NCBI GenBank assembly: GCA_028704635.1
Contig: JAQWFB010000007.1
Span: forward strand, 1-57,116
Direction of reading: 5' to 3'
From: Candidatus Shapirobacteria bacterium
Lineage (GTDB): Bacteria > Patescibacteriota > Microgenomatia > UBA12405
DNA: 57,116 nucleotides
Shown here: in pieces, positions 1-36,798 of the stretch
Position numbering within the stretch: position 1 is the stretch's first letter
Layout: every line of letters starts with the position of its first letter
Position numbers and translations under genes: made by a program
Notes under the pieces: generated by a model
The model's database searches: none
The model's input: the letters and a program-made list of their open reading frames with translations, nothing else
Told to the model about the DNA's origin: nothing

Positions 1-386
1 GCGGAATATCTTTCAATAAAACCGGCTTTAGGGCGATAAGTGAAACGAATTGGTTCAGTGCCGATCAAAGAAGAATCTTTTTCTAAAATATCAATATTTT
101 TTTGAAGCCAATTTTTAGTGGGGAGGATATTGTCAGAATCAATTAAAGCAATATATTTACCAATGGCCTGTTTAAACCCAACAGCCTTACCGGCTTCGGC
201 AGTTTTAAGAGGGTTTTTTAAAATTTTGGCCTGATATTTTTTGGCTATTTTTAGAGTATTATCAGTTGAACCACCGTCGGCAATAATTATTTCATAGTTT
301 TTTAAATTTTGTTTTTTGATGGATTTAAGACAAGTTTCTAGAACAGAGGCTGCATTGAGAGTTGGAATAATAAAGGAAACTATCAT
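1..386 (-). CDS. Family 2 glycosyltransferase, N-terminal part (runs off the left edge)
   Basis: Only the first 128 or so residues are in the window; the C-terminus lies beyond position 1. The protein begins MIVSFIIPTLNAASVLETCL, the usual first strand of a GT-A fold GT2 enzyme. It continues with IIIADGGSTDNT (nucleotide-sugar pocket) and ALIDSDNILP, a DxD-like metal site. It would transfer a sugar from a nucleotide donor on the cytoplasmic face. The ATG at 386 overlaps the TGA of the upstream methyltransferase gene by 4 bases (ATGA), so it is a translationally coupled member of the same minus-strand train. Donor and acceptor are unknown. Confidence 0.85.
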   Translation of the reverse strand, partial: MIVSFIIPTLNAASVLETCLKSIKKQNLKNYEIIIADGGSTDNTLKIAKKYQAKILKNPLKTAEAGKAVGFKQAIGKYIALIDSDNILPTKNWLQKNIDILEKDSSLIGTEPIRFTYRPKAGFIERYS

Positions 387-1063
387 TTTAAGTTTATAGT
401 TTTAATAATAAGTCTGGCGCCAAAAGTGGGAAAGGCTTTAGCTAAAATTTGACTTTTAAATCGACCTTTTTGGTCGAAATTAATAGAATCTGAAGTAAAA
501 TTGATAATTTTAAAATTGTGTTTTTCAAGAAGATCACCGAGAGAGATTTTGGTGAAATAACGGATATGACCAGCGGAGTGATCGAGACTGGTTTCTATTA
601 GAGGATTAACACCAAACAAAAGCATTAATCGGCGGCCGAGAGTAGCAATATTTGGAGTAGATAAAACTAAAAAACCGTTAGGTTTTAAAATTCTTTTAAT
701 TTCTTTCAGAAAAAAATCGGTGTCATAAATATGTTCAATGATTTCGCCAGCAGTGATGGTATTGAAAGTATTTTTTTGGTACGGAAAGGTAGAATGTAAA
801 TCAGCAATTTTAATTTTAAAACCTTTTTTTTGACCAATCTGAGCAACTTTTTTAGATATTTCAATTCCTTCAACTTCTTTATTTTTTTTATTTAGAATTT
901 TTATAAAATCACCGGTGCCACAACCAAGGTCTAAAACTTTTTGATTTTTATCGACCAAAGCGGCCATTATTTTTAGTCTTGAACTTAAACTTGGGTTACC
1001 ATAGCTTTTACTATTTTTATAAGTTTGATTATTAAAATTAGAAAATGATTTAGCTGTTGTCAT
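383..1063 (-). CDS. Class I SAM-dependent methyltransferase
   Basis: This 226-residue protein has a Rossmann-fold methyltransferase core. Motif I is VLDLGCGTGDFIKIL near residues 43-57, an acidic residue follows at the end of the next strand (VEGIEIS), and the later strand reads NTITAGEIIEHI, typical of the Methyltransf_11/UbiE-like group. A FLVLSTPNIATLGRRL segment follows, as in methyltransferases found in polysaccharide clusters. It is soluble, with no membrane segment. It overlaps the radical SAM gene upstream by 14 bases and a GT2 gene downstream by 4. The setting suggests methylation of a sugar, lipid carrier or glycan end, but the substrate is not visible. Confidence 0.85.
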   Translation of the reverse strand: MTTAKSFSNFNNQTYKNSKSYGNPSLSSRLKIMAALVDKNQKVLDLGCGTGDFIKILNKKNKEVEGIEISKKVAQIGQKKGFKIKIADLHSTFPYQKNTFNTITAGEIIEHIYDTDFFLKEIKRILKPNGFLVLSTPNIATLGRRLMLLFGVNPLIETSLDHSAGHIRYFTKISLGDLLEKHNFKIINFTSDSINFDQKGRFKSQILAKAFPTFGARLIIKTINLK

Positions 1064-2489
1064 TTTTAGAAAAATCTTTTAATTTTTTAAAATATTTAAA
1101 AGCGTAATTAAAAAGATGTTGTATGTCTTTTATTGATCGAATAGAAATTATTTTTTTAAAAATAAATTTGGGGGTGAGAATGCCTTTAAATAGATTTTGA
1201 ACTAGTTTTAATTGATCAGGTGGAGAAATAGGCGATTTTATTACTGGCTGTCGCATATCAAAATCATCCCAATTATTGGTTAAAAGTAAATTATTTTTTT
1301 GGCAATATTTAAAAAGTGGGGTGCCTGGGTAAGGAATTAAAATGGTGGCTTGGAGACTGTCGGCTAGGCCATCTTTAAAAATTTGTCTGGCTAAATTTAA
1401 GGTTTTTTGAGCGTCTTCTAAAGTTTCATTTGGGTATCCGATAATTGCGGTAATGTGTGGTTCGAGTTTGGCAGCTTTGGCTATTTTTAAAGTTTTAACA
1501 GCATCAGAAGTTTTTTCATTCTTATTAATAAAATCCAGAGTTGATTGATTGGCTGATTCAAGACCATATAAAATAAAACGGAAACCGGCTTGGTGCATTA
1601 ACTTATATTCTGATGAAGAAAGAGCGCCAAAGCGCATATTACAGCCGATTTTAACCTTTTTATTTAGGCCCCGACTAATTAAAGCCTGGCATAATTCTTT
1701 TAGCCAAGGACCAATGGGAAGAGTTCCTGAATCATCAAAAATTTCTTTAACGCCAAAATTATAAACTAAATTTTCAATTTCATTTAAAGTATGTTCGACA
1801 GAAAAATGGCGAAAGTTTTTACCTGGAAAAAGAGTCGTCCAAGAACAAAAAGTACATTGGCCCCACCAACAATCACGACCAGACATAATATATGATCCTG
1901 GTTTATATTTATAATTAGTATTGTTGTAGGCATAGAGTTGCCATTGGGTTAATTGTCGGTCGATAATCGGCAAGGAATTTAAATCGTGATTTTTTTGAAG
2001 TTTAAAAATTTTATCTTTTGGGGTTTTATTTTGATTTATTAATTCAATTAATTCGTCTAATAAAAAATCGTAATTACCACCAACTAAAACAAAATCGACT
2101 TTTGAATTTTTGATTGATTCTTCTGGAAGAGCGGTGACATGGTCTCCCATTAAAACAACAATCGGTTTCCATTTACATTCTTTTTTTATTTGATTAATAA
2201 TTTGCCAATGTTTTTTAACGACCGGGGTTTTGGTCTCAATGGTAATTAAATCAGGTTTATTTTTTTGAAGCTGTTTAAACCATTCTTTATAAGTTAAATT
2301 TTGAGCAATAGCATCATCCCAAAAAATTTTTAAACCTTTACTTTTTAACAAGGTGGCGGCATAAGCGGGAATAATTGGATAAATTACATTTCCAGTATTT
2401 GTCCATTGAAATTGACGATTTTGAGATAAAAAAGGAGTGCCTTTTTTAGACTCTAATGGCGGGTAGGAAATTGAAATTGATTTAACCAC
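1050..2489 (-). CDS. B12-binding-domain-type radical SAM protein
   Basis: The N-terminal third resembles a cobalamin-binding Rossmann domain (YPPLES, then PVVLMGDHVTALPEES). The radical SAM core carries DCWWGQCTFCSW, giving three cysteines spaced C-x4-C-x2-C near residues 207-215, which should hold the 4Fe-4S cluster. The frame is open to an ATG at 2558, but that start would overlap the upstream GT2 gene by 77 bases. I prefer the GTG at 2489, which overlaps the upstream stop by only 8 bases and starts the protein at the conserved first strand. Such proteins can be methyltransferases or other radical enzymes; with a SAM methyltransferase and glycosyltransferases beside it, glycan or lipid modification is likely. 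No exact substrate can be named. Confidence 0.85.
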   Translation of the reverse strand: MVKSISISYPPLESKKGTPFLSQNRQFQWTNTGNVIYPIIPAYAATLLKSKGLKIFWDDAIAQNLTYKEWFKQLQKNKPDLITIETKTPVVKKHWQIINQIKKECKWKPIVVLMGDHVTALPEESIKNSKVDFVLVGGNYDFLLDELIELINQNKTPKDKIFKLQKNHDLNSLPIIDRQLTQWQLYAYNNTNYKYKPGSYIMSGRDCWWGQCTFCSWTTLFPGKNFRHFSVEHTLNEIENLVYNFGVKEIFDDSGTLPIGPWLKELCQALISRGLNKKVKIGCNMRFGALSSSEYKLMHQAGFRFILYGLESANQSTLDFINKNEKTSDAVKTLKIAKAAKLEPHITAIIGYPNETLEDAQKTLNLARQIFKDGLADSLQATILIPYPGTPLFKYCQKNNLLLTNNWDDFDMRQPVIKSPISPPDQLKLVQNLFKGILTPKFIFKKIISIRSIKDIQHLFNYAFKYFKKLKDFSKNDNS

Positions 2490-3453
2490 CGATATACTTA
2501 CCTGTTTTTTGATCGAAGGCGTGTGGTTTAAATGTAACTTCTTTTTTGAATAAGCCATGTAGGAATAGTATACCGTAGTAAATATGGGTTATCGGTATGG
2601 TAATTGTAGCTAAAAAAGAAATCTTAAATTTATTTTCTTGAAAAATAAAATAAAAAAATGTAGTAATTAATATTGATATATAAAAATATAATGGTAATTT
2701 AAAGAAAAAATTGTGATGAAAGAAAATTAAAAATAAAATATAAAGAGCAAAAATACTGGGAATAAAATAGCCAATTTTTCGACTAGTTTGGGGGAATTTT
2801 TTGGCAAAAAAACCACGTTGAATGGCGTAACGAGTAATTTGTTGAAGATGGGGAATAATTACTGACCTGCGGTGATGATAAACGATTAAAGATGGGTGGT
2901 AAAAAATTTTTTTATGAAATTTTTTGACTAAATTTAAACAAAGAACAGTGTCTTCGCCAGGCCAGTAAGAAGTGTCAAAACCACCAGCTAAATTAAAATC
3001 ACTTTTTTTGACAATAAGGTTAACAGAGGGGTAATCATCAACAAAACGAGCTTTTTGGATGCTGTTTCGATAAATACCGGCACCGCCACTACCAAGCCAG
3101 CTAGACCAAACTAAACCGGAGGCTTTTTGTTTATAATTATCCTTTGAGGGAGTGAGACATGGCCCGCAAAAAGCAGTAAAATTGGGATTTTCTTTAACTA
3201 ACTTAAAAGCATTTTTAAAATAATTTTTACTTGGAAAAGAATCATCGTCAAAAAAAACTAAATAATCCCCTTTAGCTGTTTTGGTACCGAGGTTTCTTTT
3301 TTCTGAAGGATTGGCTGACCCAGAAATTTCGTCGGTTATAACTAAGACCTCAAAATTTTTAATGGATTGTTTTTTTAATTTTAATAAAGTTTCTTCTAAA
3401 TAAGGATTGGTTTGTCGAACTGGAATAATAATGGAAAAAATAGGATTTTTCAT
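2482..3453 (-). CDS. Family 2 glycosyltransferase with C-terminal membrane segments
   Basis: This 323-residue protein begins with a GT-A domain: FSIIIPVRQTNPYLEETLL, then VITDEISGSANPSEKRNLG and YLVFFDDDSFP as the DxD-type metal site. GGFDTSYWPGEDTVLCLNL is the usual acceptor-side ED motif. About three hydrophobic helices follow from residue 230 (FIPSIFALYILFLIF and others), so the enzyme should be anchored with its catalytic domain in the cytoplasm. It lies 2 bases after the next upstream GT2 gene. It probably adds a sugar to a lipid-linked chain; linkage and donor are unknown. Confidence 0.85.
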   Translation of the reverse strand: MKNPIFSIIIPVRQTNPYLEETLLKLKKQSIKNFEVLVITDEISGSANPSEKRNLGTKTAKGDYLVFFDDDSFPSKNYFKNAFKLVKENPNFTAFCGPCLTPSKDNYKQKASGLVWSSWLGSGGAGIYRNSIQKARFVDDYPSVNLIVKKSDFNLAGGFDTSYWPGEDTVLCLNLVKKFHKKIFYHPSLIVYHHRRSVIIPHLQQITRYAIQRGFFAKKFPQTSRKIGYFIPSIFALYILFLIFFHHNFFFKLPLYFYISILITTFFYFIFQENKFKISFLATITIPITHIYYGILFLHGLFKKEVTFKPHAFDQKTGKYIGG

Positions 3454-3455: not shown

Positions 3456-4259
3456 TTATTTTCCAGTATTAATTCTCATTTCTAATTCTGGGTCATAAAC
3501 CCACTTTCTTTTATTTTTATCATCATAATAATTTAGAATTTTGAGTCTATAAAAAACAGCAAGGGCTTCCATAAGACAACTATAAATAGTTTTAAGTCCA
3601 GTGGCGTGAGTTAAACTTTTAAAGTCGTAATTTAATTTAATTGGGGCTTCGTAAATTTTAGTAAATCCTAATTTATTGGCAACCGATAAAATTTCTAGAT
3701 CAAAAGCATAGTTTTTGACCAAAAGACGTGGAAGAACTTTTATTAAAACTAGTCGTTTGAAAATTTTTAATCCGGCTTGAGTGTCGTGAACATTAATTCC
3801 TAATAAGAATTTGGAAATAATGTGAGCACCAAAACTAATAATTCGTCTATCTAATGGGTAATTCACCATTGATGCTGGATGACGCTTAGAGGCAACGATT
3901 ATATCGGCGTTGTACCATTCCATGTGTTCTAATACTAGAGAAATTCCATTGGGATCGATTTCCATACCAGAATCAATAAAGGCAATGTAATCACCTTGGG
4001 TTTTGGCCATACCATAACGAACTGCGTAACCTTTACCGTGATTAGTTTTGTAACCAAAAGCCTTTAGGTTTTTTAATTTTAATTTTTTGATTTCTTTAAG
4101 TGATTTGTCGACAGAAGTACCATCAACAACGGCGATAATTTCATAATTGTAACGAATTTGTTTTAGAGTTTCGTTTATGATTTGAAGATCTTTTCTAATG
4201 GTTTTTTCTTGTTTGTAGACAGGGATTATGACCGATAGAAAATGATTACTATTTTTCAT
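3456..4259 (-). CDS. Dpm1/ALG5-like GT2: probable polyprenyl-phosphate sugar synthase
   Basis: This is a soluble GT2 domain of about 267 residues without an obvious C-terminal membrane anchor. Motifs are LSVIIPVYKQEKTI, EIIAVVDGTSVDKS, the glycine-rich NHGKGYAVRYGM, and IAFIDSGMEI, where the usual DxD aspartate pair is D-S-G. DTQAGLKIFKR is the family signature seen in dolichyl- and polyprenyl-phosphate sugar synthases. The frame opens at 4286, but that codon is TTG and the extra nine residues look unlike the family, so I use the ATG at 4259, which overlaps the upstream GT4 gene by 11 bases. Its product could feed the GT-C transferases encoded upstream. Confidence 0.8.
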   Translation of the reverse strand: MKNSNHFLSVIIPVYKQEKTIRKDLQIINETLKQIRYNYEIIAVVDGTSVDKSLKEIKKLKLKNLKAFGYKTNHGKGYAVRYGMAKTQGDYIAFIDSGMEIDPNGISLVLEHMEWYNADIIVASKRHPASMVNYPLDRRIISFGAHIISKFLLGINVHDTQAGLKIFKRLVLIKVLPRLLVKNYAFDLEILSVANKLGFTKIYEAPIKLNYDFKSLTHATGLKTIYSCLMEALAVFYRLKILNYYDDKNKRKWVYDPELEMRINTGK

Positions 4260-5343
4260 TTGACAACACCAAATTATAAAGGGCAAGTGTTTGAAGAGCA
4301 GTGTTTTGCCAATTAAAATTTTTGGCTCGAATTAAACCCAGTTTAGCATATTTTTGTCTTATATCTTGATTGTTCCAAAATTTTATCAATTTTTTTTCTA
4401 AATCTTTTTGGGAATGGGGATCAAATTTAAGACCATTGGAATCCATAATTTCATCTAGACAAGAATCTTGACTATATACTACAGGACAACCGGATTGCAT
4501 GGCTTGAATTAATGGTAGACCAAAACCTTCAGCAAAAGATGGTTGGCAATAGACAGTGGCTAGGTTGTAAATAAGGGGTAGTTCATTGTCTGGAATAAAA
4601 CCAGTTAATATTAGATCGTTGGTCTTAGATCGTCGATCGTAGATTGATTGAACCCAAAGAATATCTTGAGTCCAAGGATGATTTGGAATATCTTTTTTGG
4701 TAGCAGCAGAGCCGACAATTACTAATGGGTATTTTAGTTTTAAACAGGCTTTGACTAATGTTGGAATATTTTTATTCCAATTAATATCGCCGACAAATAG
4801 GATAAATTTTGATGGCAGTTTATATTTATTTTTGATTTCTTTTATTTTTTTTAAATCGGAGGAAACTTTAAAACTTGGATCAGCGGCGAGATGGGTGACA
4901 AAAATATTGTTTAATTTATATTTAGTGATTTGATTAATAATATTTTTGGAATAGTTTGAAACGGTTAAAACTTTATTGACTTGCAAAAGACGATGCTTTT
5001 GAATTAACCATTTTATTTCCCCTTTTATACCGACTGGAAAATGGGTTTTAAATTGACGGGGAATAAGATCATGGACAGTGACAACTGTAGGGATTTTAGT
5101 TTTTTTTGGAAGAGTTAATTTGAATGGATCAAAATAAGGATAATGGATTAGATTGTATTTTTTAGATGGTAGATCGTTGATATTTTTAATTAGATCAATT
5201 TGATAGTTTTTATAATCTAGATTGTTTTTAATTTCTTTTTGAAGGGCAGAAATCAAATTGGAGGTGTAGTGTCCGACGCCGCGAATAGCATTTGCGTCTT
5301 GTGTTGGAGAAATATCGATAGCAATTTTTATTTTTTTATCCAT
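4249..5343 (-). CDS. Family 4 (GT-B) glycosyltransferase with altered EX7E motif
   Basis: This 364-residue retaining GT-B enzyme opens with IAIDISPTQDANAIRGVGHY, the glycine-rich acceptor loop. VVTVHDLIP, LTVSNYSKNII and ILFVGDINWNKNIPTLV follow as landmarks of mannosyltransferase-like GT4 proteins. The donor-binding motif reads EGFGLPLIQAMQSG: the first glutamate is E272 but the second position is Q280 (codon CAA at 4504-4506) instead of Glu. An extra peptide near residues 233-243 (SIYDRRSKTND) matches a short DNA repeat also found elsewhere in the window. The gene sits between two GT2 genes in the train. Substrate is unknown. Confidence 0.85.
   Translation of the reverse strand: MDKKIKIAIDISPTQDANAIRGVGHYTSNLISALQKEIKNNLDYKNYQIDLIKNINDLPSKKYNLIHYPYFDPFKLTLPKKTKIPTVVTVHDLIPRQFKTHFPVGIKGEIKWLIQKHRLLQVNKVLTVSNYSKNIINQITKYKLNNIFVTHLAADPSFKVSSDLKKIKEIKNKYKLPSKFILFVGDINWNKNIPTLVKACLKLKYPLVIVGSAATKKDIPNHPWTQDILWVQSIYDRRSKTNDLILTGFIPDNELPLIYNLATVYCQPSFAEGFGLPLIQAMQSGCPVVYSQDSCLDEIMDSNGLKFDPHSQKDLEKKLIKFWNNQDIRQKYAKLGLIRAKNFNWQNTALQTLALYNLVLSNEK
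4611..4645. repeat. Short repeat cluster (TAGATCGT/ATCGTAGAT units) inside a GT4 gene
   Basis: TTAGATCGT occurs twice (4611-4619 and 4625-4633), followed by ATCGTAGAT at 4636-4644. Read on the coding minus strand it gives the peptide SIYDRRSKTND without breaking the frame. The same unit recurs at 6777-6807 and 37535-37558. Confidence 0.65.
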
Positions 5344-6171
5344 TTATTTTTTATCCCAATCATTTTTTAAGTCGATTTGGCGATTGGTTTTGACTAATTC
5401 CCAATATTTAGTGTAGTAAATTGGGAATCTTAAAGCAGAATAAAAAGAAAAAACAAAACCAGGAAAGCCATCGACATAACCACGGTGTCGGAAAAATGTT
5501 TTCAAAAACCACCAAGTTGGTTTATAAAGATAAAAGTTTATAAAGTTTATAAAGTTTATTTTTGTTTCTTTCTCTTGTAATTCTTGGGCTAAAAGGGTGG
5601 TGTAACGATTATGACGAAGAAGATATTTGGAAAAAGAAGTGTCGGCATAATGTTCTAAATCATTTTTAAGCCAACCCACCTCTCCTTCTATTTTGGCTTG
5701 TTCATGAACATCGACACACGGAAGACGACCTTTGCCTTTTTTATAAAATCTGATGGTTGGGTCGGGATATTGACCGCCTTTTTTTAAAAAAGCGCCTAAG
5801 AAATAATTTTTCCTCGGGATCCAAAAACCGTTTTGCTTAACACCACCAATATCTTTTTCTAAATATGAAATAATTTCTTTTTTAAGCTGAGGGGTGACAA
5901 TTTCGTCAGCATCGAGTTGAAGAATCCAATCACTAGTACAAGCATCAATAGCAATATTTTTATTGATATGAAAAATTGGTTTGTTGGTGGTCTTGATTAT
6001 TTTGACTTTTTTGAACTTAGAGGCAACCTCGATGGTTTTGTCTTGAGAATTACCATCGGCAATGATTATTTCGTCGACCCAATCAGATACAGCATTCAAA
6101 CATCGCTCAATATTGTTTTCTTCATTATAAGTGGCAATAGCGACTGAGATGGTTCTTTTTGTATTTTTCAT
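5344..6171 (-). CDS. WaaE/KdtX-type family 2 glycosyltransferase
   Basis: This 275-residue GT2 domain has ISVAIATYNEENNIERCL, WVDEIIIADGNSQDKT and ILQLDADEIVTPQLK, where DADE holds the metal site. The segment NYFLGAFLKKGGQYPD and a late VDVHEQAKI histidine motif match the lipopolysaccharide-core glucosyltransferase group (WaaE/KdtX-like). It has a short hydrophobic C-terminal region that may associate with the membrane. It shares its architecture with 22343-23125 and 24038-24973 in this window, so it is one of three paralogues. It overlaps the upstream GT39 gene by 4 bases and ends next to the GT4 start. Confidence 0.85.
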   Translation of the reverse strand: MKNTKRTISVAIATYNEENNIERCLNAVSDWVDEIIIADGNSQDKTIEVASKFKKVKIIKTTNKPIFHINKNIAIDACTSDWILQLDADEIVTPQLKKEIISYLEKDIGGVKQNGFWIPRKNYFLGAFLKKGGQYPDPTIRFYKKGKGRLPCVDVHEQAKIEGEVGWLKNDLEHYADTSFSKYLLRHNRYTTLLAQELQEKETKINFINFINFYLYKPTWWFLKTFFRHRGYVDGFPGFVFSFYSALRFPIYYTKYWELVKTNRQIDLKNDWDKK

Positions 6172-7790
6172 GGTTTTAAATAGATTTTAAACCCTGGCTG
6201 TTCATTTGGGAAATTAATAATTTTAATAGGTTCAAATGGAACTAATTCATCACTGGTGACAACTAGTGATCTTGAACGAATTCTACCCCATTCAATTTTT
6301 TGGAAATTGTATTTATTAAAATTTAGAACAGTAGAAAAACCGTATTGATCGGGGGTGGTTAGCTTTATTTCCTGCTGAATTTTTTCTGGCGGATATTTAG
6401 AAAAAAATAAAAATAAAATATAGGGTTGATCGTATTTATCGGTGACGTAAATTTTATCGTAATTATTTTTTTGGCTTTCTAAGTATGGAACTAATTGATC
6501 AAAGCCATATTCCCAAGCATAGGGATATCTTTTGGAATAATGAATAAAATAAGCATCGAAATAATAAGAGACAAAATATCCATAGACGATGATGAATATG
6601 ATGGAAATTACCTTTAAAATATTTTTATTTTTAAAAAAAGAGAAGAAATAATAAATTCCCAAGGCGATTAAAATTGACAAGGGAATAACCATAGAAAGAG
6701 CCCGAAGGGCGGATGGGGCCTGGTAAGTCAGAGATGAAGCAATGGGAGCAATTAATAAAAAGGCAATAAAAAATATTTTAGATCGTAGATGATAGATCGT
6801 AGATTTCAATAAAAATATAATACCTAGGAGTAAAAATGGTAATTCGATTAAATAAATTTGGCCCATTTCGGGAACCTTAGAACGGGGAACTTCGTCTCCG
6901 TTAATAGTTAAGAAATTTAAATCAAAATGAGAAGTATATTTTTGTCCCCAAGAAATTAAATAAAGAAGTCTTTTGTTATGCATGACACGGTTTATCAATT
7001 TAACATTATTGTGGTGGTTGATAAGTTCATTGGCACGATTAATTGGACCTTGGTCAGCAGTTAAGCCGACACCGCCAATTCGGGCAGTTCCTCCATTGTT
7101 TAGAAATGAAAATGTTACAGGTAAGGCTAATAAAACACCAAATAAAACTGGAATTAAAATTTGAGGAAGGTTTTTGATTAAATTTTTAAAATACAAAACA
7201 ACCAGTGTTAAGGCTAAAAGTGGAGCAATGAGGCGGGCTGAGTGGTAAATATAAAGCGATAAAACATAAAAAACAACAAACAAATTAAAATTTAATAAGA
7301 ATTTTTCTTTGATTGATTTGAAGAAAAAATAGGTGCCGATGATAATAAAAGAGAGAGCGGCGGAAGATTCCCAGGCGCCGCGACTAAAATGAATGTGCCA
7401 GGGTGAAAGAGTTAAAACAGTGGCAGTTAAAAGCGCTAGTTTATTATTTTTTGATAAAAGAAAAATTAATTTATACAAAAAAAGGATAGTTAATATAGAA
7501 AGTATCAAATTTGGCAATCTGACAGCCAATGGTGTGAGGCCAAAAATTTTGACGAAAGGTATGGCTAAATATACATAGCCGCCCGGTTTGTAATCCCCAA
7601 ATGATTTAAAATGAAGAGGCCAAGAGACGCCGTGTTCGTCTTTGCCGGTTTCGATAAGAGAATAGGCATTGTAACCGAGAGCAGCCTCGTCGGCATTGAG
7701 TGATGGCATGGAGCCAATATTAATAAAACGAATTAAAATGGCAATGACAACAATAATTAATAATGGTAATTTGTTAATTTTGGTAGGCAT
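6168..7790 (-). CDS. GT39/ArnT-like membrane glycosyltransferase (GT-C fold)
   Basis: This 540-residue protein has about ten or more hydrophobic helices and no signal peptide beyond its first helix. The first outer loop holds the catalytic-type motif NADEAALGYNAYSL (D34, E35), then FKSFGDYKPGGY. These match the PMT_2/ArnT group, which moves a sugar from a polyprenyl-phosphate carrier to an acceptor on the outer face. A soluble C-terminal tail follows the last helix. It is closely similar to the next upstream gene (7774-9414), indicating tandem duplication. The loop near residues 330-337 (STIYHLRSK) is made by a short DNA repeat. Acceptor unknown. Confidence 0.85.
   Translation of the reverse strand: MPTKINKLPLLIIVVIAILIRFINIGSMPSLNADEAALGYNAYSLIETGKDEHGVSWPLHFKSFGDYKPGGYVYLAIPFVKIFGLTPLAVRLPNLILSILTILFLYKLIFLLSKNNKLALLTATVLTLSPWHIHFSRGAWESSAALSFIIIGTYFFFKSIKEKFLLNFNLFVVFYVLSLYIYHSARLIAPLLALTLVVLYFKNLIKNLPQILIPVLFGVLLALPVTFSFLNNGGTARIGGVGLTADQGPINRANELINHHNNVKLINRVMHNKRLLYLISWGQKYTSHFDLNFLTINGDEVPRSKVPEMGQIYLIELPFLLLGIIFLLKSTIYHLRSKIFFIAFLLIAPIASSLTYQAPSALRALSMVIPLSILIALGIYYFFSFFKNKNILKVISIIFIIVYGYFVSYYFDAYFIHYSKRYPYAWEYGFDQLVPYLESQKNNYDKIYVTDKYDQPYILFLFFSKYPPEKIQQEIKLTTPDQYGFSTVLNFNKYNFQKIEWGRIRSRSLVVTSDELVPFEPIKIINFPNEQPGFKIYLKP
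6777..6807. repeat. Short repeat (two TAGATCGTAGAT units) inside a GT39 gene
   Basis: Two copies of TAGATCGTAGAT, separated by one base pair of offset sequence, lie at 6779-6804. On the coding strand they read STIYHLRSK, a loop between two membrane helices, so the frame is kept. Related units are at 4611-4645 and 37535-37558. Confidence 0.7.
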
Positions 7791-18731: not shown

Positions 18732-18741
18732 AAATTTTATT

Positions 18742-22320: not shown

Positions 22321-22327
22321 CAAATTT

Positions 22328-24037: not shown

Positions 24038-24973
24038 CTAAAAGTTTTTAGTTAGATAACTTAAAGTTAGACGAATTTTGAGTAAAAGTCTTTTAAAAAA
24101 ATTGGCAGAATATTCTTTTCTGAAATATTTATTAAACCAAAAATCATATTCGAAAGTAGTTTCTTGACTGGCAGAGACAAAAGATTCTTTGGTGATGGAT
24201 TTTTCTTGACAACCTTGTTTTTCCCAAAGTTTGACATAAATTAGAGCAATGGCAAAAGCTTGAAGAAGGGAAAAAATTAAACCATGGAAACCATCTTTGT
24301 AGCCTTCGGCAAAGAAAAAACGACTATTAAATTCTTGGATTGGTTTCAAAAGAAAATCGCTGGTTTTGATTTTATAATTTTGAGCAAATAATTCATCGGC
24401 CTGAATCCCACTGTAGCGAAGAGCTCGAGTGACAAATTGACTAACACTGGTGTAATTATTGTGTTGGATGGCCATTTTTTCGGAGTCTAAGAGAGTGATG
24501 CCATTGCCTTTGGTTGTTGGCTGACTGTGAATTTCTTTTTTCCAAGTGACGGCTCCTTTTTTAAAAAAGCGAATTAAATAATCAGGCCAACTATTAGAAT
24601 GGCGAATCCATTTTCCAAAAATAATATTTTTGCGAGGAATTTTAACAAAATCAACATCGGCTCTTTTTGTGACAGAGAGCAACTCGTTTTTTAATGTCTT
24701 GGTTAAAAATTCATCTGGATCAAGGAGTAAAATCCATTTGCCAGTGGCCTTGGAAAGGGCAAAATTTCTGGCTGGTTCGACAAACTTCATTGGACGATAG
24801 GAAAAAACTTGGGCTCCAGCTTTTTTGGCAATTTCTTGGCTGCCATCAGTAGAATTCATATCGACAACGATTATCTCATCGGCTAAATTTTTAATGGAAC
24901 GGAGACATTTATTTAAAGCTTCGGCTTCATTTCGAACATTGATGACGGCCGAAATATTAGGTTTGTTTTTCAT
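24038..24973 (-). CDS. WaaE/KdtX-type family 2 glycosyltransferase
   Basis: This 311-residue GT2 enzyme has ISAVINVRNEAEALNKCLRS, LADEIIVVDMNSTDGSQEI and ILLLDPDEFLTKTLKNEL, where DPDE replaces the DADE of its paralogues. KNIIFGKWIRHSNSWPDYL and WKKEIHSQPTTKG fit the group. A basic tail follows (FFKRLLLKIRLTLSYL). The frame reaches 25057 but would overlap the previous gene by 65 bases; the ATG at 24973 gives the family start, leaves a 19-base gap, and has AGGA about nine bases upstream as a possible ribosome site. Confidence 0.85.
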   Translation of the reverse strand: MKNKPNISAVINVRNEAEALNKCLRSIKNLADEIIVVDMNSTDGSQEIAKKAGAQVFSYRPMKFVEPARNFALSKATGKWILLLDPDEFLTKTLKNELLSVTKRADVDFVKIPRKNIIFGKWIRHSNSWPDYLIRFFKKGAVTWKKEIHSQPTTKGNGITLLDSEKMAIQHNNYTSVSQFVTRALRYSGIQADELFAQNYKIKTSDFLLKPIQEFNSRFFFAEGYKDGFHGLIFSLLQAFAIALIYVKLWEKQGCQEKSITKESFVSASQETTFEYDFWFNKYFRKEYSANFFKRLLLKIRLTLSYLTKNF

Positions 24974-24992
24974 AATTGAATGTCCTATTTTA

Positions 24993-29826: not shown

Positions 29827-31357
29827 ATAAAAGTAGCTTGTCGCCGTCTGGTTTGTCAAATGATTTAATGATTTTAAATTGATTTAATTGATTGGAATCT
29901 ATTTTGACACGCGATTTATTCATTAAAAGATAAACTTCGTCTCCGTGATTTTTGGCATCAATTAAGTCAGAAGGTGTTTCAGTAAAACCCAAACCTTGTC
30001 CAATTATTGTTAATTGTGGAACTTTATTACAATAAATTTGAAGACCATTTGGAAGAGTGCCAAAAGCACCTTCAGTACCGATGATTACATTGGCAACTTG
30101 CGATCTTTGTTTTAGAAAATCAGCTGATTCTTTAATACCCCACCCAGATGTCCAATCTGAAAGATAACCAGTTTCAGTAGAATATATTTTTTGATGGAAA
30201 GGGTCAACGGAAATTTTGTAGATAAAATTTATATTTAAAGTGAAAACGGTAATAATAAAAATAAATTTTAAAATATTTGATTTGATTTTGGTTAAAAAAT
30301 TTAGAAAACCGATAGAAATTAAAATAATTAAAGGTGGAAGAGTGAAAAGAATGTAGCGAGCAGTAAAAACCTTAGCCATAGCAGCGTTGGCAATTAAAGG
30401 TAAAATCCACCAAAAAATTAATACTAAATATTTAAAATTTAAATTTTTAGATTTTTTAGTTTTGATTAAAAGTAAGATTAATCCGACAAGACTAAAAATT
30501 AAAAGTGGCCAGGAAATATATTGATTATAAAGAGACAAGGTGTCTAATAAATGTGGGTTTAATGGATCAAAAGGATGTTTTAAGATTTCAGAAATTGACC
30601 AAACATAATCTTTATTACGAACAGCAATTTGACTAAATTGAGGTCCAAGACGGAGAATATTATAGATTAAAAAGGCAATAATAGATGAAATTATCGGAAG
30701 AATAATCAATTTAAAATTACGGTAGTTAAATAATAAAAAAGTGACGAAGGATAAAACAATGAAATATATTGCTGGTGATTTGGTGAGCCAAGAAAAACCT
30801 AAAATTGCGCCTAAAATTAGAGATAAATCTAGTTTGGGATATTTGGATAATAAAAAAGAAAATAGTAGAGCCGCTAGGCCAAAAAATGAGAGTAAGGTGT
30901 CGGCTAGAGCCATGCGGTCGAAAAAAAACGTGAAAGGAATTAGACAATAAATTAGAGAAGAAAAAATTGATGAATAAAATTTTTTGTCGATACTGTTTTT
31001 AATAAATTTAAAAATATTTTTTTCTTTATCTTCATAATTTAAAAAAATAGCCGTAGTAAAAAATAAAAGCAAAATAAGGCCAAAACCAGCAAAAACAGAA
31101 ACAATACGTCCAGAAATGAGTGGATCGGAAATTAACTTAAGAGTGACAGCATTGATCCACATAAAAAGTGGTTGTTTACCATCAGTTTGAGGAATAAATC
31201 GAAGGGTTTCTTCTGATTGTATTATTTGAGCCCAGCGAATATAAATGGCTTCATCACCAAAAACAGGAATAGAAGTTAAATTTTGGAGGCGAGAAAAAAA
31301 ATAAAATCCGGAAATTAAAATTAGAAGAAAAAAACAAAAGAACTTATTTTTTGTCAT
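29816..31357 (-). CDS. GT39/ArnT-like membrane glycosyltransferase (GT-C fold)
   Basis: This 513-residue protein has one N-terminal helix, then PVFGDEAIYIRWAQII (D35, E36) and QTDGKQPLFMWINAV, the DE...KQPL signature of the PMT_2 group. FFFDRMALADTLL corresponds to the ..SR.ala...l motif in the second outer loop, and FTARYILFTLPPLIIL to the late TaRY.l...P segment. It overlaps the ALG5-like GT2 gene upstream by 14 bases, which suggests that this transferase uses the polyprenyl-phosphate sugar made by that enzyme. Confidence 0.87.
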   Translation of the reverse strand: MTKNKFFCFFLLILISGFYFFSRLQNLTSIPVFGDEAIYIRWAQIIQSEETLRFIPQTDGKQPLFMWINAVTLKLISDPLISGRIVSVFAGFGLILLLFFTTAIFLNYEDKEKNIFKFIKNSIDKKFYSSIFSSLIYCLIPFTFFFDRMALADTLLSFFGLAALLFSFLLSKYPKLDLSLILGAILGFSWLTKSPAIYFIVLSFVTFLLFNYRNFKLIILPIISSIIAFLIYNILRLGPQFSQIAVRNKDYVWSISEILKHPFDPLNPHLLDTLSLYNQYISWPLLIFSLVGLILLLIKTKKSKNLNFKYLVLIFWWILPLIANAAMAKVFTARYILFTLPPLIILISIGFLNFLTKIKSNILKFIFIITVFTLNINFIYKISVDPFHQKIYSTETGYLSDWTSGWGIKESADFLKQRSQVANVIIGTEGAFGTLPNGLQIYCNKVPQLTIIGQGLGFTETPSDLIDAKNHGDEVYLLMNKSRVKIDSNQLNQFKIIKSFDKPDGDKLLLYEI

Positions 31358-32108
31358 AAATGCCTTTGAAATTATTGATTAAGACACGTTTAATTTCATT
31401 AATCATTTGAATTGATTCTTTTCTGTAGCGAGTACCATTATCACCTTTAGTGTCGCTAATGTCCTCGTTTTGCCAATCAACTTCGACTTCTTTTATTTTA
31501 TAACCCCATTTTTGGGCCATAAATAAAAGTTCAACATCAAAAGCGGAAACGCGCCAACCTTTTTTGTCTGATTTGTCTTTAAAAAATTGAAGATTTGGAA
31601 AGAGATCTTTAGCGACTTCAGTTTTAAACATTTTAAAACCACATTGGGTGTCAATAATATTGTGTAAAAGCACAGCTCGACGAAGGGAGAGGAAAACTGC
31701 TCCACCGATTTTACGAAAAAGAGTATTACCTTCACGAGAAACGCCTCGTGAGCCGATAACAACATCATATCTTTTATTAAAAAATGGCAATAATTTATTC
31801 ATTTCTTTTAATGGAGTGGATTGATCCATATCGGTAAAAAGTACGATTGGATATTTGGCTTCTTGAATGCCGCCCCAAACAGCTGATGGTTTGCCACCAT
31901 GGGGTAGATCTAAAACACGAAAACCTTTATGCTTGGAGGCAAAATCTTTAATTAATTTAAGACTTTTGTCGGTTGATTCATCGTTGCAAATTATTACTTC
32001 CCATTGAAATTTTTGAGTTTTAAGAAAATCAAAGACTTCGTCTAGAACACCTTTTTTTAAATTATTCTCTTCGTTGTAGCAAGGAATGATTATTGAGATT
32101 GAATTCAT
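31344..32108 (-). CDS. ALG5/Dpm1-like GT2: probable polyprenyl-phosphate sugar synthase
   Basis: This 254-residue GT2 enzyme has ISIIIPCYNEENNL, EVIICNDESTDKS, LPHGGKPSAVWGGI and VLFTDMDQSTPLKEMN with the DxD. VIGSRGVSREGN and IDTQCGFKMFK are the landmarks of dolichyl-phosphate glucosyltransferase-like (ALG5) proteins. No C-terminal helix is seen. It is the first gene of the 32-kb minus-strand train. The open frame begins at a TTG (32123), but the ATG at 32108 gives the family start and lies 6 bases after a perfect TATAAT, so a leaderless start is likely. Confidence 0.88.
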   Translation of the reverse strand: MNSISIIIPCYNEENNLKKGVLDEVFDFLKTQKFQWEVIICNDESTDKSLKLIKDFASKHKGFRVLDLPHGGKPSAVWGGIQEAKYPIVLFTDMDQSTPLKEMNKLLPFFNKRYDVVIGSRGVSREGNTLFRKIGGAVFLSLRRAVLLHNIIDTQCGFKMFKTEVAKDLFPNLQFFKDKSDKKGWRVSAFDVELLFMAQKWGYKIKEVEVDWQNEDISDTKGDNGTRYRKESIQMINEIKRVLINNFKGIYDKK

Positions 32109-32114
32109 TAAATG

Positions 32115-32143
32115 ATTATACAATCAATTTGATTGATTGAAAA
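32115..32143 (-). promoter_or_regulatory. Promoter of the 32-kb glycosyltransferase train (leaderless type)
   Basis: On the minus strand the -10 is a perfect TATAAT (32115-32120), with TTTTCA (32138-32143) as a 4-of-6 -35 at 17-base spacing. Six bases separate the -10 from the ATG at 32108, so transcription would begin at or next to the start codon. It is back to back with the rightward promoter of the gene at 32169. Confidence 0.6.
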
Positions 32144-32168: not shown

Positions 32169-33668
32169 GTGTTAGAAATAAAACATATCCTTAAAGGAAA
32201 AGCTATAATAGTATTAGGGTTTATTTTGGTGATTGGTTTAATAATGAGAGTTTATAATTTTGAAAAGTCGTTTGCTTTTGCCCATGATCAAGATTTGTAT
32301 TCTTGGATTACCAAAGACATTGTCGTGAATAAACATCTGCGAACTGTTGGACAAATAACTAGTGTTGATGGTGTTTTTATTGGGCCTCTCTACTATTATA
32401 TTATGGCTCTGAGTTATTTATTGTTTGGTATGAATCCAGTTAGCGCCATTGTTCCACTGACATTCGTTGGTTTATTAACAATAATAAGTTTTTATATTTT
32501 GGGTAAAAAATATTTTTCAAAAAGAGTTGGGTTAATTATGGCCTTTATTTACGCTGTTTCTTATGGAGCAGCTCTTTATGATAAATGGTCGTGTCCGACT
32601 GAATTAGCGATTCTTTGGACGGTTTGGTTTTTATATGTGATATTGGGAATGTTTAGAAAAAATTTGAAATTAATGCCATTTTTTGGTGTTTTAGCTGGAC
32701 TTACTTACCATATTCATATTGCCTTATTACCTGTTCTACTAATTCCAATTTTAGCCTATTTTATGTCTGGTGGAAAATTTAAGGAAAATTTAAAACAAAT
32801 AAAAGTTAAAAATATTTTAATAACTTTATTGTTGTTTATGTTGGTTAGTAGCCCTTTTTGGATTTTTGAATTGAAACACAATTTTTCTCAGGTTAGAAGC
32901 GTGATTACTGCTTCCCAAAAGGATCTAGGTCAACCAGTAGGATTTGTAAAATTTAAAAAAGTTGTTAATGCATCTGCAATTGAGATGCAACAAAGATTAT
33001 TGATTGGGTTACCAATTAAACCAGTGGAAATTGTTTGGCCTATTTTTTTATTAGTAACTTGTGTTGTTTATAAATTTAAAAAAATAAAAGGAAAAGAATT
33101 AATTGCCTTTTTTATTTGGTTTTTTATAATTGGTTTAGCCCAATATACCTCGAAAAGAATAGTAAGTGAATATTATTTCACAAATTATCTGGCTATTTTT
33201 GTAATTATAGTTTCTTTATTTTTAGATATATTTTTGAGTAAAAAATATTTAGATAAAGTTGTTTTTGGAATTGGCGGAATTTATTTGATAGCTAATTTTT
33301 CTTGGTTGGTAAAAATTACCAATCAAAACAACGATTCTTATTTATATAAAAAACAATTAGTTGAATATATTCGGGCTGATCAATTAAAAAAGGGCTATCC
33401 TTGTATTGGGGTAAATTATGTGGCTAAATTTGGAGATGGAGTGGGGTTTAGGTATCTATTTTGGTATAAAGGAGTTGAAATAATTAAACCAAGCGGATCA
33501 GTACCAACATACAATGTGATCGTTCCATGGGAAACAAGTGCTAGTGAAATTAGTGAGAAGTTTGGAAGATTTGGAGTAGTTTTACCAGTGCAAAAGGAAG
33601 CCTCGAACAATGAGTGGTGTAAGGCAAAAGAAAATCAATTAGACCCATTATTGGGATATACGGAATAA
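32169..33668 (+). CDS. GT39-like membrane protein with DQ in place of DE
   Basis: This 499-residue, GTG-started protein has about ten helices. Its first outer loop reads FAFAHDQDLYSWITKDIV (D40, Q41): the catalytic-type aspartate is present but the usual Glu is Gln. VFIGPLYYYIMAL and YDKWSCPTELAILW follow, and GLTYHIHIALLPVLL is typical of this sub-branch. It is most similar in motif layout to the gene at 34581-36077, also a DQ type. It is transcribed away from the main train and converges on the gene ending at 33684, with only 15 bases between. It is the only rightward glycosyltransferase in the window. Confidence 0.78.
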   Translation: MLEIKHILKGKAIIVLGFILVIGLIMRVYNFEKSFAFAHDQDLYSWITKDIVVNKHLRTVGQITSVDGVFIGPLYYYIMALSYLLFGMNPVSAIVPLTFVGLLTIISFYILGKKYFSKRVGLIMAFIYAVSYGAALYDKWSCPTELAILWTVWFLYVILGMFRKNLKLMPFFGVLAGLTYHIHIALLPVLLIPILAYFMSGGKFKENLKQIKVKNILITLLLFMLVSSPFWIFELKHNFSQVRSVITASQKDLGQPVGFVKFKKVVNASAIEMQQRLLIGLPIKPVEIVWPIFLLVTCVVYKFKKIKGKELIAFFIWFFIIGLAQYTSKRIVSEYYFTNYLAIFVIIVSLFLDIFLSKKYLDKVVFGIGGIYLIANFSWLVKITNQNNDSYLYKKQLVEYIRADQLKKGYPCIGVNYVAKFGDGVGFRYLFWYKGVEIIKPSGSVPTYNVIVPWETSASEISEKFGRFGVVLPVQKEASNNEWCKAKENQLDPLLGYTE

Positions 33669-33683: not shown

Positions 33684-34565
33684 TTATTTTACAGAATTGA
33701 TTAGTTGATTAAATTCTTGCTGAATATTTTTATTACTGAAAATACCACTACTCATGCTCTTGGCAACATCGTTTGATTGTGAATCTAAAATGTTAATAGC
33801 TGTTTTAAAATCATTTGAATTTAATGCTTTATTGTAAGAATCACCAGTGTCATTAAAATATCCTTCAATTAATTTTTCATACAATTTAATTGTATTATTG
33901 ACAGTAGTAATATATCCAAAATAATAAGTATCATTAGGAACAGAAGGATAACCATTACCACTTGTAATAAAAACAAGTATTCCTTTTTCTTTAGTTGCTA
34001 CTCCCAATAAACTATGAGAAGACGAACATATAGGGAAAATTGTTCCCAGAAAAGAAATTTTATTTGGAGTACTGCTGTCATAAATATAATTTTTAAGAAA
34101 GCTAGCAGCGCCTGTTGTACTGCCTTCTTTTAATAAACTATAAAAACTTGTAATTTTATTTTGTTCATCAACTGTTCGATTAGTGCATTCTTTTGTACAT
34201 GGATTACAATTTTTTGTTACATTATTTATATTGTAATCATTTACTTTATAACCAAGTTGAATTAATTTACTGTCATTAAAAGCAATGGTCGGTTTTGGTG
34301 TGTTATTTATTTGTTGAGGTGTTGTAACTGATGTTGGAATATCAGTTGGAGTTACTTCAGAAGTATTACTAGTGTTTTGTTTAATTGGAGATTGTTTAGA
34401 ATTTTTATTATTTAAAATAAAAATAAAAGAAATTATTACTATTAGTAAAATAGTAAAACAAACAATAAATAAATATTTAAAAAGATTTGTTTTAGGAGTT
34501 ATTGGTTGAATAGGTAATGTTTCAATAGGTTGATTTGCAGTATTAGTGTTGTTTATTTCTTCCAT
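33684..34565 (-). CDS. Single-pass membrane-anchored protein of unknown function
   Basis: This 293-residue protein has a short cytoplasmic N-terminus rich in Asn, Thr and Pro, one helix (LFIVCFTILLIVIISFIFIL near residues 31-50), and a Ser/Thr/Pro linker (SEVTPTDIPTSVTTPQQ). An outer domain follows with CNPCTKECTN and a later FPICSSSHSLLGV, so four cysteines could form disulfides. The C-terminal helix-rich part (LNSNDFKTAINILDSQ) resembles no family I recognise. It has its own -10 box (perfect TATAAT 7 bases before the ATG). It lies between two glycosyltransferase units, so a surface role is possible, but this is context only. Confidence 0.7.
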   Translation of the reverse strand: MEEINNTNTANQPIETLPIQPITPKTNLFKYLFIVCFTILLIVIISFIFILNNKNSKQSPIKQNTSNTSEVTPTDIPTSVTTPQQINNTPKPTIAFNDSKLIQLGYKVNDYNINNVTKNCNPCTKECTNRTVDEQNKITSFYSLLKEGSTTGAASFLKNYIYDSSTPNKISFLGTIFPICSSSHSLLGVATKEKGILVFITSGNGYPSVPNDTYYFGYITTVNNTIKLYEKLIEGYFNDTGDSYNKALNSNDFKTAINILDSQSNDVAKSMSSGIFSNKNIQQEFNQLINSVK

Positions 34566-34572
34566 AACTTAT

Positions 34573-34578
34573 ATTATA
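34573..34578 (-). promoter_or_regulatory. -10 box of the anchored-protein gene (leaderless type)
   Basis: Perfect TATAAT on the minus strand, 7 bases before the ATG at 34565. No convincing -35 at 16-18 bases. The 15-base gap to the upstream GT39 stop leaves no room for a longer leader. Confidence 0.5.
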
Positions 34579-34580
34579 TA

Positions 34581-36077
34581 CTATTTTTTACCATCTGAAT
34601 TATGGACTAGCTTAAAAAGCTTAATTCCATTTACCTCCCATTGATTATCGATTTTTGCCCAACCAAAGGCGGCAACAGACCACTCTGGGTTGTTAATAGG
34701 ATTACATTCAATTTGGAAGGGTTCGCAAACAACAAATAATTGTTCAGCCAGTTTATCAGGAAGATTAACTATTTTTGCTTCTTTATTACCTAAAACATAA
34801 CGATATGGAGGATCATAATTTTGCTTAGCAAGTAGGGCAAAATTAAAATCTTTGTTGTTGGAATTAGCAATAATTAAATCGGCAATTTGATTGACGGTTT
34901 TTAATTGACTGTTGGGTTGATAGCGGAAAGGATTTTCTAAAAAAGAAAAAATAGTTATTAGAATTAAAAAAGGAATGCCTATAAATTTAAACTTGTTAAT
35001 TAAAAAACCAGCAAGAATAAAAACAACAGGGAAAAGAAAAGCAAAATAGTGGTCGTAGATATGTTGTTTGTAAAGAGCCAAAGCAGTTAAACCAGACAGA
35101 TACCAAAAGAAAACAATCCAAAAAGTAGTTTTTTGTTTTTTGAACTTTAAAATAAGTGGGAAAAGACTAATAAAGAAAACTATGCTGACGATTAGACCAA
35201 CCGTTCCATTTTTACCAGCCAAAAGTCGAGTGTTTACTTGATTAAACATTGCAGGCAATTCAGGAAGGGCTTTGTAGGCTTTAATGTTGACGGTGGTTTC
35301 ACGATAAGTAAAAAAACTTAAAAGAGCCTTGGAATTTTGACCGTCATGTTTAATATCAAAAAGAATTTGAGGAGTTAGGGATAAAATAAAAATAAAAATG
35401 GCTAAAAAAGTGTATTTTAAAAATGGCCCTGCCTGCCGGCAGGCAGGTTTTAATTGTTTTGATTTTTTCTGAATAAATTTGATGAGATTATAAAGCCAAA
35501 AAAGACCAATGAACGGTAAAAGGGCTAAACCAAGATAATGGCTGTTGATGACCATAATAAAAGCCAGTGATGCATATAAAAAGTAGTGGTATTTTTTAGA
35601 TCGGAAACTTTCAAAAAAGAAATAAACAAAAAGTAAACTGAAAAACGGCATAATGTTGGGATTCCAAATAAAATTGGAATATTTAATGACTACTGGAGAA
35701 ATGGCGAAAAGAAAGGCAGAAATTAAACCGACCGAACGGCTAAACCAACGCTTACCAACAAAATAAATTAGAAAAACGGTGGCAATATTGAGAAGGGCAA
35801 TAAAAATAGCTGGGCCGACTGGATTGTAGTTGGATAAAAATAAAGATGGAGCAATTAGATAATAAAAGTAAGGGCCGAGATACATGTTGCCGATGCTGGT
35901 TTGAGGGCCAATGAAAAATAAATTGCCATGTTGAAGAAAATCTTTAATAATAACGACATCTCTTCCCTGGTCGCCTAAGAATTCCATGTAGTCTGAGATC
36001 TGATAAAGACGAAGAAAAGAGGCTAATATTAAAATAGAAATTAATAGCCAGTGTTTTTTTAAAATAGTTTTAATCAC
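34581..36077 (-). CDS. GT39-like membrane glycosyltransferase (DQ type) with an in-frame palindrome
   Basis: This 498-residue protein starts at GTG 36077 and has about ten helices. The first loop reads EFLGDQGRDVVIIKDFL (D36, Q37) and IGNMYLGPYFYYLIAP; NFIWNPNIMPFFSLLFVYFF is the second-loop signature. In a basic cytoplasmic or loop segment, a 20-base perfect palindrome (35428-35447) encodes KPACRQAGPF near residues 210-218 without breaking the frame. The GTGATTAA overlap with the upstream Dpm1-like GT2 gene ties the pair together: donor-lipid synthase first, transferase second. Confidence 0.82.
   Translation of the reverse strand: MIKTILKKHWLLISILILASFLRLYQISDYMEFLGDQGRDVVIIKDFLQHGNLFFIGPQTSIGNMYLGPYFYYLIAPSLFLSNYNPVGPAIFIALLNIATVFLIYFVGKRWFSRSVGLISAFLFAISPVVIKYSNFIWNPNIMPFFSLLFVYFFFESFRSKKYHYFLYASLAFIMVINSHYLGLALLPFIGLFWLYNLIKFIQKKSKQLKPACRQAGPFLKYTFLAIFIFILSLTPQILFDIKHDGQNSKALLSFFTYRETTVNIKAYKALPELPAMFNQVNTRLLAGKNGTVGLIVSIVFFISLFPLILKFKKQKTTFWIVFFWYLSGLTALALYKQHIYDHYFAFLFPVVFILAGFLINKFKFIGIPFLILITIFSFLENPFRYQPNSQLKTVNQIADLIIANSNNKDFNFALLAKQNYDPPYRYVLGNKEAKIVNLPDKLAEQLFVVCEPFQIECNPINNPEWSVAAFGWAKIDNQWEVNGIKLFKLVHNSDGKK
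35428..35447. repeat. Perfect 20-base palindrome inside a GT39 gene
   Basis: CCTGCCTGCCGGCAGGCAGG is its own reverse complement and much richer in G and C than the surrounding DNA. Read on the minus strand it gives the peptide PACRQAG. It is built from CCTG/CAGG units. Confidence 0.9.
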
Positions 36078-36798
36078 GGTGAAAATTAATTTTAAACCAA
36101 AGTCTGAAGAGGTCAGAAAAACTCTTAATAATGACTCTAATATTTCGGCCGGTGGCTTGACCCTCGACTCGAGGATAATGATGAACGCCGATTTCGACGA
36201 TCTTAAATCCGGCTTTTTTTGATTTGATTAAAAATTCACTGCTAATAAAAGCTCCCCTTTCGGCTTCTAGTTTAGGAATAGTGTCGACTACTTTTTTATT
36301 AATAAGTTTAAAACCACAATCAATGTCGGTGACATGAAGACCGAAAAGAATGAAAACAACTAATTCCCACATTTTTGAGGTAATAATGGCAAATTTAGAA
36401 ACCTGACGAGCAAGGTAGTAACCAATCACAACATCGGCTTTAGTTTTTTGTTGTTTTTTAATAAGTTTAGTGACCTCGGTGAAATCGAATTGGCCATCAG
36501 CATCGGTGAAGGCAATCCATTGATACTGAGAGTTGTAGAGACCGCTTTTAAGGGCAGCACCATAACCACGATTGGGATTGTGGGTGATTATTTTTATTTG
36601 TTTTGGATATTCCTTTTTTATTTCTTCTAGAACTTTAGCCGTGTTATCTTTAGAGCCATCATTTATTAGAATTATTTCCCAATTTTGGGCAATTTTTTTA
36701 AGTACAGGAATGGTTTTATCAATAGTACTTTTGATATTTTTTTCTTCGTTATAGCAAGGAAAAAAGACTGAAAGTTCATTGATTAAAAATTTAGTCAT
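36070..36798 (-). CDS. Dpm1-like GT2: probable polyprenyl-phosphate sugar synthase
   Basis: This 242-residue GT2 enzyme has ELSVFFPCYNEEKNI, EIILINDGSKDNT, PNRGYGAALKSGLY and IAFTDADGQFD, a classic DADGQ metal site. VTDIDCGFKLINKKV and GVHHYPRVEGQATGRN are strong Dpm1/GtrB-family signatures. No C-terminal helices are present. The frame opens 25 codons earlier with a TTG-like start, but the ATG at 36798 gives the family N-terminus and lies 6 bases after TATACT. It overlaps the GT39-like gene downstream by 8 bases and probably makes its lipid-phosphate sugar donor. Confidence 0.9.
   Translation of the reverse strand: MTKFLINELSVFFPCYNEEKNIKSTIDKTIPVLKKIAQNWEIILINDGSKDNTAKVLEEIKKEYPKQIKIITHNPNRGYGAALKSGLYNSQYQWIAFTDADGQFDFTEVTKLIKKQQKTKADVVIGYYLARQVSKFAIITSKMWELVVFILFGLHVTDIDCGFKLINKKVVDTIPKLEAERGAFISSEFLIKSKKAGFKIVEIGVHHYPRVEGQATGRNIRVIIKSFSDLFRLWFKINFHRD

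Follow-up and report, generated by a model that had tools for sequence, protein, structure and literature searches.

What does a bacterium with a reduced genome build with about 26 transferase genes lying together in 37 kb of DNA? The question is raised by a locus at the low-coordinate end of contig JAQWFB010000007.1 (C1) of a Candidatus Shapirobacteria bacterium; this entire contig, of 57,116 bp, is the window analysed here, and its host genome measures 1.0 Mb in 16 contigs and is 96% complete. Judged by PrfB, at 68% identity, its closest named relatives are metagenome-assembled genomes of Candidatus Shapirobacteria, within the Microgenomates. Bacteria of the Candidate Phyla Radiation have reduced genomes and little-known surfaces, and both the building of their envelope and their attachment to hosts are open questions. 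The original prediction, made from the DNA letters, had counted about 26 glycosyltransferase (GT) genes here, and Pfam searches, paralogy and fold comparison bear out both the count and its composition: thirteen GT-C membrane proteins, ten complete GT2 enzymes with an eleventh cut by the contig edge, two GT4 enzymes, a Wzx-type flippase, a methyltransferase and a B12 radical S-adenosylmethionine (SAM) protein. Besides being large, the cluster is collinear and conserved to great depth; order and gene identities are kept over much of the class, with fixed and variable parts, which points to one surface glycan under long-term selection and suggests that the lineage invests in one elaborate, conserved cell-surface sugar structure. 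No earlier description of the locus was found in the open-access literature, subscription papers and preprints lying outside the search.

Conservation of gene order

The genes of the locus, labelled here GT2a to GT2j, GT4a, GT4b and GTC1 to GTC13, recur in relatives in the order GT2j-GTC13-(GTC12)-GT2i-GTC11-GTC10-flippase-GTC9-GT2h-GT2g-GT2f-GT4b-GT2e-(slot), followed by GT2d-(slot)-GTC5-GTC4-GTC3-GTC2-GTC1-GT2c-GT4a-GT2b-GT2a-radical SAM-GT2. Across the genera of the family, sequence identity ranges from about 40 to 87% while 21-26 shared genes keep this order at a Kendall tau of 0.99-1.0 in six genomes (G009, G025, G017, G021, G015 and G007); a seventh, G003, gives a tau of 1.0 over 21 genes, the compared stretch ending early there. 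Outside the family, where order was scored with competing profile hidden Markov models, tau reached 0.99 over 23 genes in G027 (related at the order level), 1.00 over 19 in G076, 1.00 over 13 in G144, 0.91 over 20 in G039, 0.89 over 11 in G089 and 0.87 over 16 in G071. The order is looser in G055 (a DeMMO6 metagenome-assembled genome; 0.76), G061 (0.81) and G037 (0.78), and in G038 the locus is absent as an order (0.39). The p-values for collinearity reflect shared order and not independence of lineages. Mere background synteny does not account for the conservation, since the locus of G027 and of G039 keeps its order amid different flanking genes.

In a class sample of 137 genomes GTC9 was detected at E <= 1e-100 in 46. 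On the contig of GTC9, in counts taken by hand among the matches listed for GTC9, GT2c and GTC10, GTC10 shared the strand of GTC9 and was no more than 15 kb away in 40 of 40 cases, and GT2c, on that strand too, followed 16-36 kb downstream in 35 of 35. Outside the class GTC9 was found in none of a phylum-wide sample of 117 genomes, being seen only in class members.

The original prediction had proposed profile searches and a comparison with related genomes, and had named an assembly artefact as a possible refutation. Both analyses were run: most of the membrane proteins matched GT-C families, and an artefact is ruled out because the same collinear order was found in independent genomes. The low end of C1 shares an exact 127-bp overlap with the start of contig C10, inside the cut GT2 gene, and its high end (57116) shares another exact 127-bp overlap with the start of C16, which continues the window rightward; exact-length overlaps of contig ends are the product expected of k-mer assembly graphs. 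The locus is accordingly longer than the 37 kb first stated and continues on C10. The cut GT2 gene (1-382, minus strand, as are all locus genes below unless stated otherwise) encodes the N-terminal part, with its family match at 72-377, and continues at C10:3-749 to give a joined product of about 335 aa. The join is confirmed by full-length orthologues of 338-354 aa, placed just behind the radical SAM gene, in G009, G025, G017, G015 and G007.

Within the family the GT2 and GT4 genes, the flippase, GTC1-3, GTC9-11 and GTC13 show little or no variation, and GTC5-8, GTC12, a 205-aa open reading frame (ORF) and the methyltransferase are variable, from which we infer a conserved backbone with variable decoration; in several relatives the GTC8 slot is filled by YfhO-family GT-Cs of 700-800 aa. 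In a tree of GTC1, GTC2, GTC3, GTC5 and GTC6 from the family and the class, the last four each formed one clade and GTC1 nearly so; since the paralogues form clades of their own, these duplications predate the sampled diversity, the copies having kept separate roles. A hypervariable serotype island was also considered: it is rejected for the core by its constant order, and retained for the GT-C slot.

Donor synthases and GT-C enzymes

GT2i (31344-32123) and GT2j (36070-36873), both core genes, resemble polyprenyl-phosphate-sugar synthases, an assignment supported by specific homology. In addition to their Pfam matches, their profiles have DPMS, GtrB and ArnC as best solved relatives (E down to approximately 1e-23), and the control profile of GT2c (5344-6171; a core marker assigned by Pfam and orthology) has GmaR and SunS on top and no DPMS-type best match. 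Synthases of the DPMS, GtrB and ArnC type make the donors for GT-C enzymes. The true start of GT2j is probably about 30 codons inside its ORF. The original prediction had recognised no sugar-nucleotide genes and had concluded that the donors must come from elsewhere; the former is right for the window, although such genes are present on the next contig, C10, while the latter is half right and is corrected here because the putative donor synthases GT2i and GT2j lie inside the locus.

The reading of the thirteen membrane proteins as GT-Cs also stands. Seven score over the PMT or PMT_2 cut-off of Pfam: GTC1 (6168-7790; PMT-type, core), its PMT/PMT_2-type core paralogues GTC2 (7774-9414) and GTC3 (9401-11098), GTC5 (12746-14470; PMT_2-type, variable), GTC8 (18742-20268; PMT-type, in a variable slot), GTC12 (32169-33668, plus strand; PMT_2-type, a variable module) and its paralogue GTC13 (34581-36077; PMT-type), the most widely conserved, with a match in 36 of 37 relatives. 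GTC4 (11088-12749), usual if not universal, scores over the cut-off of PTPS_related (PF10131), and the variable GTC7 (16768-17973) over that of GT87; for GTC1, GTC4, GTC5, GTC7, GTC8 and GTC11 the assignment draws on orthology as well. The others were placed by genome search, paralogy or fold. The PMT_2-type core protein GTC11 (29816-31357), which overlaps GT2i, reached 23.7 bits by hmmscan, under the PMT_2 cut-off of 26.1, and 27.6 bits, over it, in the genome search. The variable GTC6 (14474-16162) has no Pfam match and is a paralogue of GTC1, GTC2, GTC3 and GTC5 (E 1e-40), while the core protein GTC10 (28087-29859) has no Pfam match either, yet is a paralogue of GTC4 (E 4e-150) with a modelled GT-C fold and a C-terminal beta domain. 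GTC9 (24993-26702; core marker) matches no Pfam or NCBIfam family and is assigned to the GT-Cs by predicted fold alone. None of ten window proteins tried against NCBIfam matched above cut-off. By profile searches of the whole genome, ten of its 17 PMT_2 matches and 11 of its roughly two dozen GT2 genes fall within the window.

The predicted first outer loop carries an acidic residue in all thirteen GT-Cs, and this residue does not vary within any ortholog set (sets of 2-15 sequences, with none for GTC8). The first-loop aspartates are D36/D40 in GTC13 and D35 in GTC11. GT-C enzymes usually have a DxD motif or a modified acidic one (PMC8035078).

A proposed assembly line and its alternatives

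We judge it fairly probable that the locus constitutes a single assembly line, whose product is a complex glycan of the cell surface that is built inside, flipped, and extended outside. Judging from their families, the cytoplasmic GT2 and GT4 enzymes would assemble an oligosaccharide attached to a polyprenyl carrier; this carrier, like the direction of the process, the sugar order and the acceptor, is proposed on the strength of the enzyme families, donor-synthase homology and GT-C fold seen in the sequence. Attaching the first sugar would fall to a WcaJ/WbaP-like or WecA-like enzyme whose gene lies outside the locus, and the Wzx-type flippase (26660-28114; core, by Pfam), which directly precedes GTC9 in nearly all compared loci, would turn the lipid-linked oligosaccharide outward. 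GT2i and GT2j, on account of their homology to DPMS, GtrB and ArnC, would make polyprenyl-phosphate sugars, with which the thirteen GT-Cs, as fold and acidic residue suggest, may lengthen and branch the glycan outside. The approximately 22 constant genes would then specify a conserved backbone, and the variable GT-C slot lineage-specific branches. The finished glycan may stay on its lipid, or a ligase may pass it to the wall or to protein, the candidates being the LCP protein encoded at 41304, the Wzy_C-type protein on C10, and GTC9. The original prediction had likewise seen lipid-linked building beside outer transfer by GT-Cs, which the family assignments support.

Several points weigh against this assembly line. 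Neither a ligase nor an acceptor was identified for the glycan of the locus, and the initiating transferase is absent from within the locus. GT2i and GT2j are without the membrane helices that GtrB and ArnC have. Some members of the cluster could serve other products, and the single Wzx flippase may be unable to serve oligosaccharide and monosaccharide carriers both; two GtrA proteins are encoded elsewhere in the genome.

Gram-positive multi-component transmembrane glycosylation systems (CsbB/GtcA/YfhO, GtlA/GtcA/GtlB and GacI/GacK/GacL) share with the locus a GT-A polyprenyl-phosphate-sugar synthase, a flippase and an outer GT-C, and YfhO-family and PMT_2 GT-Cs are common to these systems and to the locus or its relatives (PMC8035078). 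We count this match in two-step logic in favour of the assembly line, the donor synthase (GT2i/GT2j), Wzx flippase and GT-Cs with a first-loop acidic residue all being found by homology; the Gram-positive systems, however, usually comprise about three genes and add one sugar, whereas the locus holds its thirteen GT-Cs, eleven GT2s and two GT4s in one train. In mycobacterial arabinogalactan and lipoarabinomannan assembly the GT-Cs EmbA-C, AftA-D and PimE use polyprenyl-phosphate sugars to produce a conserved, branched envelope glycan. The locus resembles that system in its many GT-Cs and in weak resemblances of fold to AftA, AftD and Emb, but differs in gene set and order, and the sequence profiles of GTC1, GTC9, GTC10 and GTC13 found no useful match among PDB structures at the thresholds used. 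With the eukaryotic dolichol (ALG) pathway and its oligosaccharyltransferase, in which cytoplasmic GTs, a flip and GT-C extension are combined with DPM1/ALG5-like GT2 donors and an STT3-fold GT-C, the likeness is one of logic only.

A bolder version of the assembly line, which we hold to be doubtful though conceivable, is that the product is a new, class-defining Microgenomates envelope glycan or lipoglycan, passed down as a single block from a time before the families of the class diverged, GTC9 being a new kind of STT3-fold en-bloc ligase. If true, the class glycan would be a functional analogue of arabinogalactan or the lipopolysaccharide core. GT2i, GT2j, GTC9, GTC10 and GTC13 provide named genes for testing.

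The AlphaFold model of GTC9 (predicted local distance difference test 81) has STT3, PglB and AglB as its top fold matches, with E values of 7e-9 to 5e-7 for STT3/AglB and template modelling (TM) scores of 0.5-0.56 at a large root-mean-square deviation. The control model, GTC10, also has STT3 on top, more weakly (E 1e-5, TM approximately 0.40), and for both models the top matches are GT-C enzymes only; since the control shares the resemblance, the nearness of GTC9 to STT3 is partly generic. The WWDYG and DxD motifs are absent from all 11 GTC9 orthologues, and STT3 (PF02516) has no match above cut-off in the genome, a sub-threshold match being confined to GTC5. A true oligosaccharyltransferase was set aside for GTC9 on these missing motifs, the missing Pfam match and the fold argument as weakened by the control. 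As a possible en-bloc ligase, GTC9 is a lead backed by its position directly behind the flippase, and no conclusion.

These data bear on protein glycosylation, in which the GT-Cs, or an oligosaccharyltransferase-like GTC9, would glycosylate S-layer or pilus proteins in the style of O-mannosylation or of PglB/AglB N-glycosylation. Such a role is unlikely, even though the PMT-family match expected of GT39 protein O-mannosyltransferases holds for seven of the thirteen GT-Cs, the fold of GTC9 is nearest to STT3, PglB and AglB, and the locus has a conserved surface-type protein with a DUF11 domain next to it. The PMT_2 family also takes in GT-Cs acting on wall polymers (PMC8035078). The absence of an above-cut-off STT3 and of its motifs from GTC9, and the partly generic nature of the STT3 resemblance, further count against it.

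An ordinary serotype locus of the Wzx/Wzy capsule or O-antigen-like kind, merely grown large, is improbable. The locus shares with such loci its GT2, GT4 and Wzx content, and the continuing contig C10 carries sugar-nucleotide genes and a Wzy_C/O-antigen-ligase-like protein (C10:58.6 kb). Serotype loci, however, vary between close strains, whereas here 21-26 genes keep their order from genus to genus within the family, and beyond it a good part of that order persists; the core order did not vary in any family genome compared, at a level above that of strains. Pfam recognised no Wzy in the locus, in line with the original prediction, and, to our knowledge, thirteen GT-Cs are not expected in serotype loci. 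Least credible of all is a chance clustering of several independent small GT-A/GT-C modules for different polymers, to which the overlapping GT2/GT-C pairs (36070/34581 and 31344/29816) and the single GT-Cs variably inserted on either strand might point, because 20-odd genes share a strict order around one central flippase over much of the class, which favours one product.

Further genes of the locus

The GT train is unbroken from 32123 to 383, with gaps of at most 22 bp with ATG starts, so that the predicted train of about 32 kb with overlaps of 4-28 bases holds save for one overlap of 77 bp. The divergent GTC12 splits this main train from a second run at 33684-36873. Two small unassigned ORFs also lie inside: the variable 205-aa ORF (16182-16799), membrane-anchored and travelling with GTC7 in the orthology comparison, and a 293-aa ORF (33684-34565) with one hydrophobic segment, counted like all such segments by simple hydropathy, and no Pfam family.

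All ten complete GT2 genes are confirmed by Pfam. With orthology as further evidence, GT2a (2482-3453; about three hydrophobic segments), GT2b (3456-4286), GT2e (20265-21137), GT2f (22343-23125), GT2g (23122-24033) and GT2h (24038-25057) are core genes, as are GT4a (4249-5343) and GT4b (21139-22323), and GT2d (17937-18782) is near-core. The SAM methyltransferase (383-1063; Pfam and orthology) is a variable member. The B12-binding/radical SAM protein (1050-2558) is a core gene of the family, with 52-78% identity in 7 genomes; it was assigned by Pfam with the B12 domain below cut-off, and its nearest NCBIfam models, HpnJ/BchE, are far under their cut-offs. Just past the split GT2, GT2s on contig C10 have two more B12-binding/radical SAM proteins next to them (L001 2619-7926), and B12 radical SAM chemistry may for this reason modify the glycan or its lipid.

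Contig C10 and flanking genes

C10 encodes GalE and two nucleotide-sugar dehydrogenases, all over cut-off, together with a DegT aminotransferase, an acetyltransferase, a GFO/IDH oxidoreductase, a ManC-like nucleotidyltransferase, B12 radical SAM proteins, a WcaJ/WbaP-like initiating transferase, Wzm/Wzt and two further Wzx-type flippases. At C10:60-80 kb (L004) lie the ManC-like enzyme, the WcaJ/WbaP-like transferase and apparent peptidoglycan genes (Mur ligases, MraY); besides MraY, the genome encodes a second enzyme of the PNPT type. The product of L001 9072-10826 (contig C10), 584 aa long with 8 hydrophobic segments and with TPR repeats at its C-terminus, is reminiscent of TMTC-type O-mannosyltransferases. 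On the Shapirobacteria contig JALHFY010000001.1 of G017 the GT locus is followed by orthologues of the TPR membrane protein of C10, a 327-aa protein, Wzm and Wzt.

At the other end of the locus, the DUF11 surface-type protein (36908-37525, plus strand) is divergent from GT2j and kept there in most family loci at 33-61% identity; a link to the glycan is possible. In the family, FtsE, FtsX and an EnvC-like coiled-coil protein (37638-40378) are the immediate neighbours of the locus, and just upstream of them come PrfB and usually the LCP protein, the glycopolymer transferase encoded at 41304; beyond the family the locus occurs without such neighbours. Further along the window, a 389-aa ORF (48740-49909, minus strand) shares 170 bp with the end of SecA in a different reading frame, and its true start is probably internal.

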